64,000 bases of DNA from Nitrospirota bacterium (GCA_021825295.1 JAKAHV010000004.1:52000-115999); one strand, 5' to 3'; positions 22,881 through 62,314 are shown, counted from the first letter of the stretch. Notes: generated by a model not told the origin, from the letters alone. Translations and numbers: made by a program.

Positions 22881-23423
22881 CTAAAAAGTCCCGCTCAGCA
22901 CAAGGCCGTAGAGGTCCTTGTCCGCCACGGGCCTTGCATATACGCCATTAAAAAGAGGTTTCGTGAATATCCTGCTTGCGCCAAACCCGATTGCCGCGCC
23001 CACAAGCACATCGGAGAAATGGTGTTCGCGCGCATCGATGCGGCTCCAGCAGACATATGCGGAGACCGCGTATGCGGGCAGGCCGTAGGCCCATCCGTAG
23101 CGCCTCTGAAGATAACCGGCCGCCGCGAATGTCGAGGATGCGTGCAGTGACGGGAAGGAATGGGTGTTTTCGCCGTTGGGGCGTTCCTCCTTTACCGTGT
23201 ATTTCAGGGCCAGGGTCACGGCGGCGGCCGTGCCGTATGATTCTATCAGTTGGGCAACACCCTTTCTGTCATTGTGGGAGAGCGAGATGATCCCCGCGGC
23301 CAGGGGGACGGCGGCGGCGCCTGCGTCCCCGGAGGTTTCAATCGTGCCGGCCATGCATACGTTTGCCGCCGCCAGGATGAAGACGGCGGCCAGGGCGGCA
23401 ATCAAAAATCCCGTTTTTTTCAT
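22881..23423 (-). CDS. PAP2-family phosphatase (canonical active-site motifs)
   Basis: KYTVKEERP, SFPSLHAS, SRIDAREHHFSDVLVG. Confidence 0.88.
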   Translation of the reverse strand: MKKTGFLIAALAAVFILAAANVCMAGTIETSGDAGAAAVPLAAGIISLSHNDRKGVAQLIESYGTAAAVTLALKYTVKEERPNGENTHSFPSLHASSTFAAAGYLQRRYGWAYGLPAYAVSAYVCWSRIDAREHHFSDVLVGAAIGFGASRIFTKPLFNGVYARPVADKDLYGLVLSGTF

Positions 23424-54949: not shown

Positions 54950-57900
54950 ATGAACTGGAGGCATTACGTTGCGATTGCCGCCGCCCTTGCTCCCGGGCAG
55001 CCTTTAAAGGCGCAGATTGCCCGGCTTCTGGACAGGATCCGTGAGGCGTCCTACAGCGCTTTTGTCGCCAATGTCATACTGGTCCTCTTTGCGGTTGCGA
55101 TTATAATCGCCGGCGCCGCAGTGGGGTGGATTGCCTTATATCCCGAGAAGGTCCAGGCCCTTGTGGAAAAGCTGCGCGGCAGGCCGCGGCTGGCGCGCCT
55201 GGAGACACGGTATAAGAAATGGACGGGATTTCTTGTCGACAGGGTCAGGCCCGGGGGCGCATACGGGCTGTCCTTCACGATCGGCCTGGTGGCCCTCGGC
55301 CTGAGCATCTGGGCCTTTGGCAGCCTGCTGGAAGATGTTGTGGCCAGGGATGAGCTTATATTCTTCGACATGCCCCTGGCCGCGTACATCGCGGCCCACC
55401 GCAGCGCCTGGCTAACGTCGGTCATGCTGCGTTTGGCGGTCCTCGGAAACGGCTGGTTCGTAATCTCCCTGGCGGGCCTGGCGGGCCTCTTTCTGAGGTA
55501 CAAGACAAAGACCTGGCGGCCCCTTTTGTTGCTGATGGCCGCGGTGGCCGGAGCGGGCGTGCTTGACCTTATTGTGGGAATCTCGGTCGCCCGGCCGCGC
55601 CCCCCGACGCCTTGGATGGCCGTCCCCGCATACGGATACTCTTTCCCGTCCTGGCAGACATCGTTATCTGTCATTTACGGCGGCATAGCATATCTGCTTG
55701 CCAAAAACCTTCCTCTCTGGCGGAGCAAGCCCGCCGTCTGGGTATTCGCTCTCGCACTGGCTTTTCTTGCCGGGGTCCAGGCAGTGTACCTGGGGGTTAA
55801 TTGGCTGACCGATGTGCTTGGCGGATGGGCGCTTGCCTGCCTGTGGCTGTCGATCATATTTACCGTATCGCCGGTAATTGAACATGCCAGGGGCCCTGTC
55901 CGCGGCGCGCCGGCAGCGGCCGCTCCTGTGCCATCCGGACGGGGGCCGGCCTATACCCCTGTCCGGATGCCCCCGATACCCATCCCCGCGCGCCTCACGC
56001 CGGCGCAGGACGGGCTGAATGAGGCGCAGGTAAAAGACAGGACGGCCAAGGGGCAGATCAACATCACAAAACAGAAATCCGGAAGGAGCGTGGCCCGGAT
56101 ACTCAAGGAGAACATCCTTACCAGGTTTAATGCCCTGCTGGGCAGCCTGTTAATAATAATTCTGCTTGTCGGGCCTCTCCAGGATGCCCTCTTTGGCATC
56201 GTGATCATTCTCAATACGGCAATCGGCATCTTTCAGGAAATGCGCGCGAAACTGGCGCTGGACCGCCTTGTAATCATAGCGGCCCCAAAGGCGAGAGTGG
56301 TGCGTTCCGGCGCAATAATGGAAATCGGCAGCGATGAGATCGTCCAGGACGACATAATCGAGCTTCGCGCAGGCGACCAGGCCCCGGTTGACGGCGTGGT
56401 CCTTTCCTCCGGCAACGCGGAGGCCGATGAGTCTTCCATCACGGGCGAGTCAGAGCCGGTGGCAAAGGCCGCGGGCGACGGGATATATTCGGGAAGCTTT
56501 GTGGTTGCGGGCAGTTGCCGCATCCAGGCCGTCCGGATAGGGGAGCAGGCCTACGGGCGGGCGCTTGCGAATGCAGCCCGCCGGTTCACCCTCGCCCGCT
56601 CCGAACTGCGCGAAGGAATCGACCGCCTGCTTGGCTATATCACATGGTTTCTCATCCCCGCCTCCGTGATACTGTTTGTTACCCAGTTTCTGTATATGCA
56701 GGGCGGCTGGCGGGACGCAATCACAGGCTCGGTCGCCGGGGTGGAGGGAATGGTGCCGGGGGGGCTGGTCCTCCTCGCCAGTGTGGTAATGGCCACGGCC
56801 GCGGTGCGGCTGGCCAGGCGGAAGGCGCTTATTCAGGAACTGGGGGCCGTGGAGATGCTTGCCAGGGTGGATGTGCTCTGTCTGGACAAGACCGGGACCC
56901 TTACGAACGGGGACATGTTTCTTGAAATGATTGTGCCGGCGGACCGGATTTTGGGGCGCGTCGCGGGCCTGCCGGCATGCAGCCCCGGCTCCGTGCTGGG
57001 GGCATTGGCCGCAATTGAGCCCGCCCCCAATGCGAGCCTTCGCGCCATCGCCTCCGCCTGTCCGCCCCCGCGGGGCGGGCAATGGGCCGTAAAGGGCGCG
57101 GTCCCCTTTTCTTCCGCGCGGAGGTGGAGCGCGGTCGCCTTTGAGGGCGGCGGCACCTGGGTGCTCGGCGCCCCGGAGGTTATTCTTGTCCATCACATGC
57201 CCGCCTCGCCCCTGATGCCCGCCTCGCCCCTGATGGAGGAGATCAACCGGCACGCCGCAGGCGGAAAACGTGTCCTGGCCCTGGCGTATACCGGACAGGC
57301 GCTGACCGCCCAATCGGATATCTCCCAGGCTGCTCTGACGCCCGCCGCGCTTGTTGTGCTGGGCGAGCATTTAAGGGAAGGCGTAGCCGGGACGCTTCAA
57401 TATTTCAAGGAGCAGAACGTGACGCTTAAGATCATTTCCGGCGACCATCCGCATACGGCTGCCGCGATCGCGTCCGCCTCGGGTCTCACCGCCGAATCCG
57501 GCGTGGATGGGCGCGACCTGCCCGCGGACCCAGACGCGCTTGCCGATGCGCTTGAGCGGACAAACGTGTTTGGAAGGGTCACGCCTGAGCAAAAAAGGGT
57601 GATGATCAGGACGCTTCAAAAAAGGGGGCACGTGGTTTCCATGGTCGGCGACGGCGTAAATGACGTCCTTGCGGTCAAGGAAGCGGATTTCGGCATAGCC
57701 ATGGGCTCCGGGGCCAGTGCCACGAGGGCGATCGCCCAGTTGGTTCTGCTTTCAAACGATTTCAAGGTCCTGCCGGATGTGATCGCGGAGGGGCGCCGGA
57801 CCATCGCGAATATCGAGAGGACCGCCAATTTGTTCATCTCCAAGACGACGTATGTGATAGTATTGGCCCTGGCGGTGGGTCTTGCAAGGGTCCCGTTTCC

Positions 57901-58378
57901 CTTTCTGCCGCGGCATCTGACCCTTATCGGCTTCCTGACAATAGGCCTGCCGGCCATGTTCCTGTCCCTGAGGCGCAATACCACCCGCGCGCGGCATGGT
58001 TTTATTTCCCGCGTCCTGCGCTTTTCAGTCCCGGCGGGCTGCATCTCGGCCGCCATGACCCTGATCGCCTACGCCTTCACCAGGCAGGTTGAGCCCATGA
58101 GCACCGGCCTGGCGCGCACCGCCGCAACGCTCACCGTGATCGGCTGCGGCGTGTCTGTTCTGATATTGCTTGCGCGGCCCGTCACCTTGCGGTTCAGGCT
58201 TTTCATGGGCGCATTGATGATTGCCCTTGGCGCGGTCATCACCGTTCCGCTGCTCAGTGATTTTTTTGCGCTCGTGTTTCCGCCCGCGCGCGTCTGGGCG
58301 GTCATACTGGTCCTTTCGGCGGCATGCTTCATGGCGCTCAGGGCAAACCGGCAATTGCTGGAGGTTTCGGCGAAATAG
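54950..58378 (+). CDS. PAP2-like membrane domain fused to a P-type ATPase
   Basis: N-terminal PAP2-like region (VARPRPPTPW, SFPSWQTSLS, YLGVNWLTDVLGGW). C-terminal P-type ATPase: TGESEPVAK, CLDKTGTLTNGDM, MVGDGVNDVLAVKEADFGIAMGSG. Confidence 0.9.
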   Translation: MNWRHYVAIAAALAPGQPLKAQIARLLDRIREASYSAFVANVILVLFAVAIIIAGAAVGWIALYPEKVQALVEKLRGRPRLARLETRYKKWTGFLVDRVRPGGAYGLSFTIGLVALGLSIWAFGSLLEDVVARDELIFFDMPLAAYIAAHRSAWLTSVMLRLAVLGNGWFVISLAGLAGLFLRYKTKTWRPLLLLMAAVAGAGVLDLIVGISVARPRPPTPWMAVPAYGYSFPSWQTSLSVIYGGIAYLLAKNLPLWRSKPAVWVFALALAFLAGVQAVYLGVNWLTDVLGGWALACLWLSIIFTVSPVIEHARGPVRGAPAAAAPVPSGRGPAYTPVRMPPIPIPARLTPAQDGLNEAQVKDRTAKGQINITKQKSGRSVARILKENILTRFNALLGSLLIIILLVGPLQDALFGIVIILNTAIGIFQEMRAKLALDRLVIIAAPKARVVRSGAIMEIGSDEIVQDDIIELRAGDQAPVDGVVLSSGNAEADESSITGESEPVAKAAGDGIYSGSFVVAGSCRIQAVRIGEQAYGRALANAARRFTLARSELREGIDRLLGYITWFLIPASVILFVTQFLYMQGGWRDAITGSVAGVEGMVPGGLVLLASVVMATAAVRLARRKALIQELGAVEMLARVDVLCLDKTGTLTNGDMFLEMIVPADRILGRVAGLPACSPGSVLGALAAIEPAPNASLRAIASACPPPRGGQWAVKGAVPFSSARRWSAVAFEGGGTWVLGAPEVILVHHMPASPLMPASPLMEEINRHAAGGKRVLALAYTGQALTAQSDISQAALTPAALVVLGEHLREGVAGTLQYFKEQNVTLKIISGDHPHTAAAIASASGLTAESGVDGRDLPADPDALADALERTNVFGRVTPEQKRVMIRTLQKRGHVVSMVGDGVNDVLAVKEADFGIAMGSGASATRAIAQLVLLSNDFKVLPDVIAEGRRTIANIERTANLFISKTTYVIVLALAVGLARVPFPFLPRHLTLIGFLTIGLPAMFLSLRRNTTRARHGFISRVLRFSVPAGCISAAMTLIAYAFTRQVEPMSTGLARTAATLTVIGCGVSVLILLARPVTLRFRLFMGALMIALGAVITVPLLSDFFALVFPPARVWAVILVLSAACFMALRANRQLLEVSAK
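57197..57232 (+). repeat. Perfect 18-bp tandem duplication inside the P-type ATPase
   Basis: atgcccgcctcgcccctg x2, encoding MPASPLMPASPL. Confidence 0.95.
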
Positions 58379-58392
58379 CCAGCGATGTTTTT

Positions 58393-58627
58393 AGAACCTA
58401 TCTCTAAATTGATTAAATTTTCAATACCCCGCAGTCTCTGCTGCGGCGGGGAGGTTCATTCCGAAGCGAAAGAGAGAGGGAATCGTGGCAGACAAGGAGA
58501 AAAGGGGAAATCGCCCGGAGGCGCAGCAGCGCTGCATTGAGGACGATTTTCCCTTGGCGACACCGTATGCCGCGAGTTTCAGTCCCGCCATGGCGGGACA
58601 GCCGGAAGCGATTTTGAGATAGGTTCT
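58393..58627. mobile_element. MITE-like family B (copy B1)
   Basis: AGAACCTATCTC... / ...GAAGCGATTTTGAGATAGGTTCT termini. Interior is the reverse complement of copy 63296..63474. Confidence 0.85.
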
Positions 58628-60777
58628 TACATCCTTGCAGCGCGCAGCCGCAGGGCATTGCCGATGACCGAGACCGAACTGAAACTCATGGCGGCTGCGG
58701 CTATCACGGGGCTCAAAAGTATCCCCGTGAATGGATACAGCACGCCCGCCGCGACCGGCACCCCCAGGGAATTATAGACAAAGGCGAAAAACAGGTTCTG
58801 TTTTATGTTGCGCATCGTCGCGCGGCTGAGGCGGATGGCGCGCACAATCCCGCGCAGGTCCCCCTTCACAAGGGTAACGCCCGCGCTCTCCATCGCCACA
58901 TCCGTCCCTGTCCCCATCGCTATTCCCACATGCGCCTGTGCCAGGGCCGGAGCGTCGTTGATGCCGTCTCCGGCCATTGCCACCATGCGCCCTTCGTTTT
59001 GAAGCCGCTTCACCACGTCCGCCTTCTGGTCCGGCAGGACCTCGGCGATGACCTCATCGATGCCGAGCTTCGAGGCGACCGTCCGGGCCGTTGTGCGGTT
59101 GTCCCCTGTAAGCATCACCACCCTTATGCCCTCCCTGTGGAGTTCATCGATTGCGCCCTTTGTAGTATTCTTGACCGGATCGGCCACCCCCATCAGCCCC
59201 GCGGCCCTGCCGTCGATGGAGAGGAACATCGCGGTCTCGCCGCTTTTGCGCATCTCCTCCGCCCTGGCGCGGAGCGCTCCCAAATCGATCCCGGAGTCCG
59301 CCATCAGGGCCAGGTTTCCGAGCATAACGCTGCGACCCTCCACCAGGCCGGAAACCCCCTTGCCTGTTATGGAATTGAAGGATGTCGCGTTGACGGGAGA
59401 GATGCCCGCCTCCAGCGCCCCGCCCACGATCGCGGCCGCAAGCGGGTGCTCGCTGCCCTTCTCGATAGAGGCGGCATGGCGGAGGACTGTCTTTTCGTCG
59501 AAGCCCGCCGCGGGGACGACTTCAATGAGCCTTGGCTTTCCAACCGTGAGCGTGCCGGTTTTGTCCACGACCAGGGTGTCCACCTTTTTCATGACCTCTA
59601 TGGCCTCCGCATTCCTGAACAGCACGCCGCCGGCCGCGCCCTTGCCGGCCGCCACCATTATGGACATGGGGGTCGCCAGCCCAAGGGCGCAGGGGCAGGC
59701 GATTATCAGGACGGCGACGGCGTTTATCAAGGCCAGGGCCATCCGGGGCTGCGGGCCGAAGACCGCCCAGGCTATGAAGGTAAGGATTGCGACCGCCACC
59801 ACCGTCTGGACGAAATAAGAGGCCACCACATCCGCGAGTTTTTGTATGGGGGCCCGGCTGCGCTGCGCCTCGGCCACCATTCGGATTATCTGTGAAAGGA
59901 GGGTTTCGGCCCCCACCTTTTCGGCGCGCATGATGAGCGCCCCGGGGCCGTTGATGGTTGCGCCTATCACCCGGTCGTCCTTTTTCTTCTCCACCGGGAT
60001 GGGCTCCCCCGTTATCATGGACTCGTCTACGGAGCTTGCCCCCTCCATGACGGTGCCGTCCACCGGGACCTTCTCACCCGGGCGTATCCTGAGCAGGTCG
60101 CCGGGCTTTACCATGTCCAGGGGCACATCCTCCTCGGCGCCCTCCGGCAGCACGCGGCGCGCCGTTTTGGGGGCAAGCCCCAGGAGCTGCCTGATGGCCG
60201 CGCCTGTCTTGGACCTGGCCCGAAGCTCCAGCACCTGGCCCAGAAGCACCAGCGTCGTTATGACGGCCGCGGCCTCGAAATACGTGCCGACCTCGCCGCC
60301 CGCAAGACGGAAAGATGCCGGGAAAATGTCCGGAAACATCACCGCCACCACGCTGTAGACGTAGGCCACCGATATGCCGAGCCCTATTAGGGTGAACATG
60401 TTGGGGCTTCTGTTTATCACCGATTGCCAGCCCCTGGCGAAAAATGGCCAGCCGCCCCAGAGCACGACGGGAGTGGCCAGGGCAAGCTCCACCCACTTGG
60501 GCGCGGCGGCTGTGAAAACCTTATTCAGGAAAGGCAGACTGGCCCGCATGGCGATTATTACCAGCGGCGCGGTGAGGACAACACCCAGCCAGAAACGCCG
60601 CGTCATCGAGCGCAGCTCCGGGTTTTCCTCCTGCGGGGGAGCGGCGGTCCGGGGTTCGAGGGCCATGCCGCAGATGGGGCAGGCGCCCGGCTGGTCTCTG
60701 ACGATCTCCGGGTGCATGGGGCAGGTATAAGTGACGTCCCCTTCGCGCTTGCCGGATTCCGGCTTCACATGCTTCAT
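58627..60777 (-). CDS. Heavy-metal (copper-type) P1B ATPase with N-terminal YTCPMHPE metal-binding module
   Basis: [86 protein letters not shown]. Confidence 0.95.
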
Positions 60778-61153: not shown

Positions 61154-62314
61154 ATGAGAATAAGTCTGCTTTGCTGGGAATCGCTGCATTCGATTGCCGT
61201 GGGCGGCGTCGCCGTCCATGTAACCGAGCTTGCCGCCGCCCTCGAGCGAAAGGGGCATGAAGTCCACGTGTTTACGAGAATGGGCCATGGCCAGCCCCAT
61301 TACGAGGTCATAGACGGGGTGCATTATCACAGGTGCCCGTTCCGGCTGGACCGGGACTTCGTCGAAGAGACGAACGAGATGTGCCGGTCGTTCGTGCACC
61401 ATATCCTGCAGACCGAAACCTATATGGGCGCCGCCTTCGATGTGATACACGCGCACGACTGGATGACCGCGAATGCGCTTATATGGCTGAAGATGAACAG
61501 GCAGCGCAAATATGTCTTCACAATGCATTCAACCGAATACGGCCGGTGCGGCAATAATTTCTTTGACGGCCGCTCCGCGGCGATAAGGGACCTGGAGCGC
61601 GCGGGCATCAACTGGGCGGACAAGGCGATAGTAGTCTCGCACGGTCTTAAAAGAGAGATCATGTGGATGTATGAGGCGCCGGACTGGAAGGTCTCTGTGG
61701 TCTTCAACGGGGTCAACCTGCGCCAGTTCGACGGCTGGATAGACCCTTTCGATGTAAAGCGCCGCTACGGCATGGGGCCCATGGACCCTACAGTGCTTTT
61801 CTGCGGCCGCATGGTTTACCAGAAGTCGCCGGACCTCATGGTCCAGGCCATACCCTACATCCTGCGCTATTACCCGAACGCCAGGTTTGTGTTCGTGGGC
61901 GACGGCGAGATGATGGGGCATGTGCAATGGCTCTCGCATCACCTGCGGGTGGCCCATGCCGCGAGGTTTGTCGGACATAAATCAAACGGCGAGCTGGGAG
62001 ACCTTTACAAGGCCTGCGACGTGGTGTGCGTCCCCAGCCGAAACGAGCCCTTCGGGCTGGTGGTACTCGAAGGCTGGAGCGCCGGGAAACCGGTCGTTGT
62101 CACAAAAAACGGCGGACCGGACGAATACGTCTGGCATGAGGTAAACGGACTGAAAATCTACCCGAACCCGGAGTCCATCGCCTGGGGGGTAGGCACGCTT
62201 TTTACCAACTTCGAATGGGCGAGATGGATGGGGAGAAACGGCAGAATCGCCGTCGAGAGCGCCTTCACCTGGGACGCGGTCTCGGATAAGGTGCTTTCAG
62301 TTTATTGCAGCTAA
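61154..62314 (+). CDS. Glycosyltransferase family 4 (glycogen-synthase-like)
   Basis: GGVAVHVTELAAALERKGHEVHVFTR, HAHDWMTANALI, VCVPSRNEPFGLVVLEGWSAGKPVVVTKNGG. Confidence 0.94.
   Translation: MRISLLCWESLHSIAVGGVAVHVTELAAALERKGHEVHVFTRMGHGQPHYEVIDGVHYHRCPFRLDRDFVEETNEMCRSFVHHILQTETYMGAAFDVIHAHDWMTANALIWLKMNRQRKYVFTMHSTEYGRCGNNFFDGRSAAIRDLERAGINWADKAIVVSHGLKREIMWMYEAPDWKVSVVFNGVNLRQFDGWIDPFDVKRRYGMGPMDPTVLFCGRMVYQKSPDLMVQAIPYILRYYPNARFVFVGDGEMMGHVQWLSHHLRVAHAARFVGHKSNGELGDLYKACDVVCVPSRNEPFGLVVLEGWSAGKPVVVTKNGGPDEYVWHEVNGLKIYPNPESIAWGVGTLFTNFEWARWMGRNGRIAVESAFTWDAVSDKVLSVYCS

Follow-up and report, generated by a model that had tools for sequence, protein, structure and literature searches.

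The window analyzed here, a 64,000-nucleotide stretch of DNA from a Nitrospirota bacterium, contains a gene that joins a PAP2-like domain to a P-type ATPase, and the PAP2 part has lost catalytic residues. The locus raises the question of whether such a fusion is a pump with a built-in pseudoenzyme or a protein that lost catalysis in one lineage, and what the PAP2 part still does. No published description of a PAP2–P-type ATPase fusion was found in the open-access literature searched.

Domain organization of the fusion gene

The gene forms one ORF of 1142 codons without any interruption. Its features were located by Pfam searches, hydropathy, and alignment as follows.

54950..58378, plus strand: fusion gene, PAP2 plus P6/CtpE-like P-type ATPase, 1142 amino acids (ORF, Pfam, full-length homologues)
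55058..55114, plus strand: extra N-terminal transmembrane helix, residues 37–55, preceding the PAP2 helices (hydropathy; conserved in four of four fusions)
55523..55867, plus strand: PAP2 domain (PF01569), residues 192–306, catalytically degenerate (Pfam; PgpB profile match)
55868..56011, plus strand: Pro/Ala-rich interdomain linker, residues 307–354 (alignment)
56282..56821, plus strand: E1-E2_ATPase region, residues 445–624, with TGES at residue 498 (Pfam, alignment)
56885..56899, plus strand: phosphorylation motif DKTGT, residues 646–650, intact (alignment)
57647..57664, plus strand: GDGVND hinge motif, residues 900–905, intact (alignment)

The PAP2 domain was detected with E 2e-10 and a score of 41.0 bits versus a gathering score of 27.2, and it therefore counts as a homologous PAP2 domain. 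A profile built from the PAP2 parts of four fusions (see below) matched Bacillus subtilis PgpB (5jki/6fmx) with E 1.4e-24, and the three catalytic motifs coincide in this match. The E1-E2_ATPase domain was detected with E 2.7e-38 and is followed by a HAD P/N domain at residues 640–913. These domains and the intact TGES, DKTGT, and GDGVND motifs place the second half in the P-type ATPase superfamily. Hydropathy orders the protein as the extra helix, the PAP2 helices, the linker, and then the membrane helices of the pump. The linker is the fastest-evolving part (29–49% identity between the window protein and the other fusions), and its position between the two domains is conserved. The initial annotation described one 1142-residue ORF joining a PAP2-like domain to a P-type ATPase with an intact DKTGTLT, and the open frame, the Pfam domains, and DKTGT at residue 646 bear this out. 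A structure model of the whole protein from a seven-row alignment had a mean pLDDT of 47, with the PAP2 part below 50, and was not used.

Loss of the phosphatase residues in the window copy

Whole-genome searches identified full-length PAP2–ATPase fusions in three more genomes of the phylum, G073, G116, and G304. They are 65–71% identical to the window protein over the whole length. G073 and G116 represent two other families of the window's order and G304 another order of the same class, so the four genomes fall into four families. The family sample is these four members, and in G073 an assembly gap filled with N breaks the ORF in the pump part. Only these four of 234 genomes of the class carry the fusion, and it is absent from two genomes of the window's own genus. 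The four phylum fusions form one clade in both the ATPase and the PAP2 trees (99/99 in the PAP2 tree). The PAP2 parts of the three homologues align with that of the window protein gap-free, and this alignment rejects a realignment that would restore the catalytic residues. The three motifs of the window copy were read from it.

55577..55603, plus strand: C1 motif K-x6-RP, here G210-ISVARP-R217-P218; Lys lost, Arg kept
55646..55657, plus strand: C2 motif PSGH, here PSWQ, residues 233–236; Gly to Trp, His to Gln
55778..55813, plus strand: C3 motif SR-x5-H-x3-D, here QA-VYLGV-N-WLT-D, residues 277–288; Arg and nucleophile His lost, Asp kept

The replacements are K210G, G235W, H236Q, S277Q, R278A, and H284N. 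The RP of C1 is kept, along with Arg217, Ser234, and Asp288 (R104, S161, and D211 in PgpB). All three homologues retain the catalytic residues in the form K-x6-RP, (P/L)SGH, and SR-x5-H-x3-D, and their motifs read LKITIARPRP/LSGH/SRIYLGVHWPTD, IKITVARPRP/PSGH/SRVYLGVHWPTD, and FKIAIARPRP/PSGH/SRVYLGVHWPTD. The earlier motif readings (no Lys, PSWQ, Arg to Ala, and His to Asn) were confirmed, with K, SGH, SR, and H in the same columns of the homologues. Judged by the catalytic residues of the three motifs, the sister fusions qualify as active enzymes and the window copy does not. Intact motifs in the same architecture had been named beforehand as the observation that counts against the pseudoenzyme claim, and they were found in three of three homologues. 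The architecture is therefore not a pseudoenzyme-pump by design, and catalysis was lost in the window lineage. The proposal that the PAP2 part is a pseudoenzyme is supported for the window copy, where four catalytic residues are gone, but it was rejected at the family level as a property of the fusion itself.

An artefact of sequencing, assembly, or gene calling could also give rise to a fusion or to degenerate motifs, and the assembly is a draft of 65 contigs. Seven codons of the motif regions have changed, those of the six motif columns and P286L, and at least about 12 nucleotide substitutions lie behind them. The reading frame stays open over all 3.4 kb; the degenerate motifs are therefore not frameshift or base-calling noise. 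The same join in four genomes of four families means that the gene is no assembly chimera, and for the fusion itself an artefact was already refuted by the homologues. This explanation was rejected, and its probability is negligible.

The window PAP2 shares with PgpB (Escherichia coli; B. subtilis 5jki/6fmx) the PAP2 core and the motif spacing, and the motifs are intact in the three sister fusions. It differs from PgpB in lacking the motif Lys, both His, and the Arg, and in being joined to a pump. The C3 His of E. coli PgpB (H207) is the nucleophile; activity of H207A is not detectable, and G162D is virtually dead (PMC7413402). These two positions are Asn284 and Trp235 in the window protein. 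Because Asn284 replaces the C3 nucleophile and the remaining three catalytic positions have changed as well, the window PAP2 is, by its sequence, almost certainly a catalytic null. Continued catalysis through alternative residues could be argued from the finding that PgpB H163 and R201 are partly dispensable for C55-PP hydrolysis (PMC7413402). It is very improbable given an Asn for the C3 nucleophile and a Trp for the C2 Gly. A survey of about 34 related PAP2 domains from the class and the Burkholderia locus described below points the same way: the C3 His is kept by every domain except the window's and an equally degenerate Burkholderia DedA-LssY protein, and these are the only two that have lost all four catalytic residues.

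A stand-alone PAP2 protein of 180 residues is also encoded in the window (23423..22881, minus strand). It had been described as keeping all three motifs. The catalytic K, H, R, H, and D are indeed present, but the second motif reads PSLH for PSGH, and the gene lies on the minus strand.

A catalytically dead PAP2 pocket might still bind lipid phosphate and gate the pump allosterically. The PAP2 fold is conserved while catalysis is selectively lost, Arg217, Ser234, and Asp288 are retained, and PgpB H207A still binds phosphate very tightly (PMC7413402). However, the equivalents of K97 and R201, two of the basic or phosphate-contacting residues, are Gly and Ala in the window PAP2, and Trp235 takes a position at which a bulky side chain obstructs the cleft of PgpB. 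With the Lys and Arg of the pocket gone and Trp at the C2 Gly position, phosphate binding should be poor, which makes lipid-phosphate sensing less likely. The intact relatives also show that the fusion did not arise for sensing. We consider a lipid-sensing pseudoenzyme unlikely.

The pattern of loss was measured against the 71 PAP2 columns that are invariant in the other three fusions. The window protein differs at 12 of the 71, with changes in 6 of 10 motif columns, chosen after the published motifs, compared to 6 of 61 other columns (Fisher p = 0.001). Identity between the window protein and the other fusions is 63–67% in PAP2 and 58–85% across pump segments; by these values, conservation of the PAP2 domain as a whole is similar to that of much of the pump. 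The helix-plus-PAP2 segment has a dN/dS of about 0.15–0.2 (dN 0.21–0.26 versus dS of about 1.3–1.6 or more), where dS approaches saturation in most comparisons with the window copy and a low ratio in a membrane domain is by itself no demonstration of function. The window PAP2 is under purifying selection. The picture suggested by the alignment is one of catalysis lost with the fold retained, rather than random decay.

These values bear on the idea that the PAP2 part is vestigial, with the gene apart from its partner genes, the phosphatase no longer needed, the catalytic residues drifted, and the domain an N-terminal passenger nearing loss. Drift would not concentrate on motif columns, the dN/dS is low, and the rest of PAP2 diverges about as much as the pump. 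On the other side, the TM4 Glu of the pump has changed too, and the window copy is without the RND and two-component neighbors of G116 and G304, the RND homologue of its genome lying on another contig. A vestigial domain is quite unlikely. The conserved fold, the low dN/dS, and the targeted loss fit a retained, non-catalytic PAP2 role.

The pump half and its TM4 site

P6 ATPases (CtpE, family 23) are recognized by an Ile replacing the TM6 Asp and by the absence of the KGA lysine (PMC10654040). CtpE imports Ca2+ in Mycobacterium smegmatis and has VPEGL in TM4 (PMC5615198). The corresponding sites of the fusion are as follows.

56738..56767, plus strand: TM4 site GVEGMVPGGL, residues 597–606; the PEGL Glu is Gly604, and Glu599 is new (alignment)
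57926..57952, plus strand: TM6 IGFLTIGLP; Ile998 replaces the Asp of Ca2+ export pumps, as is characteristic of P6 (alignment; PMC10654040)

Both P6 signatures are present in the fusion, with TIG at residues 997–999 and LGAP, without the KGA lysine, at residue 739. The ATPase half is 49–50% identical to Streptomyces, 49% to a Burkholderia plasmid protein, and 42–46% to Nonomuraea, Pseudonocardia, and Tsukamurella proteins, the actinobacterial matches being HAD-IC ATPases, whereas the best full-length matches among the phylum's other P-type ATPases reach only about 31%. The ATPase tree places the fusion pump apart from G080; its forks are open and its branches long, and CtpE itself lay outside the comparison. 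The fusion resembles the CtpE group (P6/TC family 23; M. smegmatis and Mycobacterium tuberculosis) in an ATPase half that aligns over its length with actinobacterial members, in the TM6 and KGA positions, and in having all catalytic P-type motifs. It differs in that CtpE is a 791-residue stand-alone Ca2+ uptake pump, whereas the window protein has a 340-residue PAP2 half in front.

TM4 is the second difference. The window protein has VPGGL and a Glu five residues upstream in place of the VPEGL of CtpE, a combination found only in the window copy and G073 (L076). These two depart from the P6 form of TM4, whereas VPEGL is retained in G116, G304, Burkholderia, and Streptomyces. For the clostridial relatives of the P6-like pump (L003–L007), TM4 was read in L003 and L005 and has IPSGL, which lacks the PEGL Glu, so this Glu is not universal across the wider group. 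The window and G073 pumps, with the PEGL Glu missing, may have changed substrate or lost transport. The ATPase tree pairs the window protein with G073 (99/96); the short PAP2 tree places it outside the other three fusions (95/79). G073 combines the TM4 change with intact PAP2 motifs; provided that the ATPase tree is correct, TM4 therefore appears to have changed before the phosphatase residues were lost.

Gene neighborhoods, apparently independent joining, and possible meaning of the fusion

The gene order in G116 is TolC, MFP, RND, a 207-residue protein, the fusion, and two successive pairs of response regulator and kinase. The G304 fusion has an MFP-RND-two-component block on one side; on the other are genes for a DSP phosphatase and a metallophosphoesterase, together with a second set of TolC-MFP-RND genes. 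The fusion on the Burkholderia plasmid comes after TolC-MFP-RND genes, which gives three loci with adjacent TolC-MFP-RND genes (G116, G304, and Burkholderia contaminans); the G073 contig is too short to show its setting. By NCBIfam, the second RND of G304 scores over the cut-off as a metal exporter of the CusA/CzcA type, the Burkholderia RND falls just under that cut-off, and for the G116 RND no model matched above its cut-off. The G116 regulators score best against heavy-metal CopR/CopS-type models, under the cut-off. Synonymous divergence between G116 and G304, which belong to different orders, is only about 0.5–0.8, and their shared RND is 84% identical; these values suggest that the efflux/fusion island spread horizontally. 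Two further observations were made at the G304 locus. The DSP-type phosphatase and calcineurin-like phosphoesterase genes directly follow the intact fusion (L103 5776–7325), which puts three phosphatase-type domains in a row, and a short ORF (L103 10905–11456) joins a sensor kinase start to an RND permease end, apparently a deletion scar in the efflux island.

Unlike the G116 and G304 genes, the window fusion has no TolC-MFP-RND or two-component neighbors. It lies beside genes for an APH-like protein and a small protein, and an HMBD-type metal P1B ATPase gene lies 250 bp downstream on the other strand. The protein has an N-terminal HMBD domain, and its gene (58627..60777, minus strand) is oriented convergently to the fusion gene. 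Relatives of the window copy do not carry homologues of the flanking glycosyltransferase (61154..62314) and APH-like genes side by side. The RND homologue elsewhere in the window's genome is a native gene, commonly present in the window's family where the fusion is absent; therefore, only direct adjacency was counted and co-occurrence was dropped. No PAP2 or DedA gene was found beside stand-alone P6-like ATPases in the stretches examined (Streptomyces, Clostridia, and three actinobacterial plasmid records).

B. contaminans plasmid pB1701 encodes a 1257-residue protein (WP_241132170.1) that, like the phylum fusions, holds a P6-like ATPase and a PAP2 domain in one polypeptide. The order is opposite, ATPase-PAP2-LssY_C, and the PAP2 is intact. 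Its PAP2 groups with that of a neighboring DedA-LssY_C protein (98/96), outside the phylum-fusion clade, on long branches that make the exact placement uncertain. The Burkholderia fusion is apparently independent of the phylum fusions, and its PAP2 is apparently of separate origin. The repeated joining of these partners, once in each order, speaks for a functional link. A plasmid search for further fusions returned no record spanning both halves besides pB1701. The adjoining DedA-LssY_C protein (L120 8754–10793) has a degenerate PAP2-like middle (VVGATSNGAWP, PDGQ, and ADLYLGRAW) that is without the same catalytic residues as the window PAP2, including K to G and H to Q.

The closest PAP2 domains in the phylum are those of DedA-PAP2 and DedA-PAP2-LssY proteins (about 30–35% identity), which likewise fuse a PAP2 phosphatase to a membrane transporter. 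Their partner is DedA rather than a P-type ATPase, and their catalytic residues are mostly intact. One proposal for DedA-PAP2 fusions is that they link C55-PP dephosphorylation with the flipping of C55-P (PMC10127716).

The explanation that we favor, with confidence a little better than even, is that the window protein is a cation pump of the P6 type whose PAP2 part has become a membrane domain without catalytic function, the phosphatase having been switched off in the window lineage while fold and pump remained under selection. The fusions would form a lineage of bifunctional membrane proteins that is small and moves horizontally; in its members, a PAP2 lipid phosphatase with its active site at the outer face precedes a P6/CtpE-like pump. 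The window gene would have come to stand apart from the efflux and two-component setting of its relatives, its phosphatase would have been silenced through replacement of the catalytic residues, and the PAP2 fold and the pump would have been kept by selection. An enzyme with two activities thus seems to have turned into a pump whose phosphatase domain is silent. Phosphatase activity is very likely absent from the window protein, and an active ATP-driven pump is likely. Ca2+ or a related divalent ion is a plausible substrate, though the TM4 site has changed. PAP2 may now stabilize, dock, or tune the pump, a structural, docking, or tuning role that is a guess reached mainly by elimination.

Few P-type pumps are as poorly understood as the P6 ATPases, among which CtpE has been shown to move Ca2+ inward (PMC10654040). 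More speculatively, P6-PAP2 fusions would have arisen at least twice, in opposite orders and beside RND genes, and could be an unrecognized envelope module that couples lipid-phosphate hydrolysis to the ATP-driven transport of cations or lipids; this coupling would be broken in the window lineage, the phosphatase turned into a pseudoenzyme regulator, and the TM4 ion site remodeled. We put this forward only tentatively. Natural fusions to a lipid phosphatase, apparently made twice, point to a functional link between P6 pumps and the lipid-phosphate chemistry of the envelope, and the intact and inactivated fusions, at 65–71% identity, offer a ready comparison for what the phosphatase half contributes to the pump.
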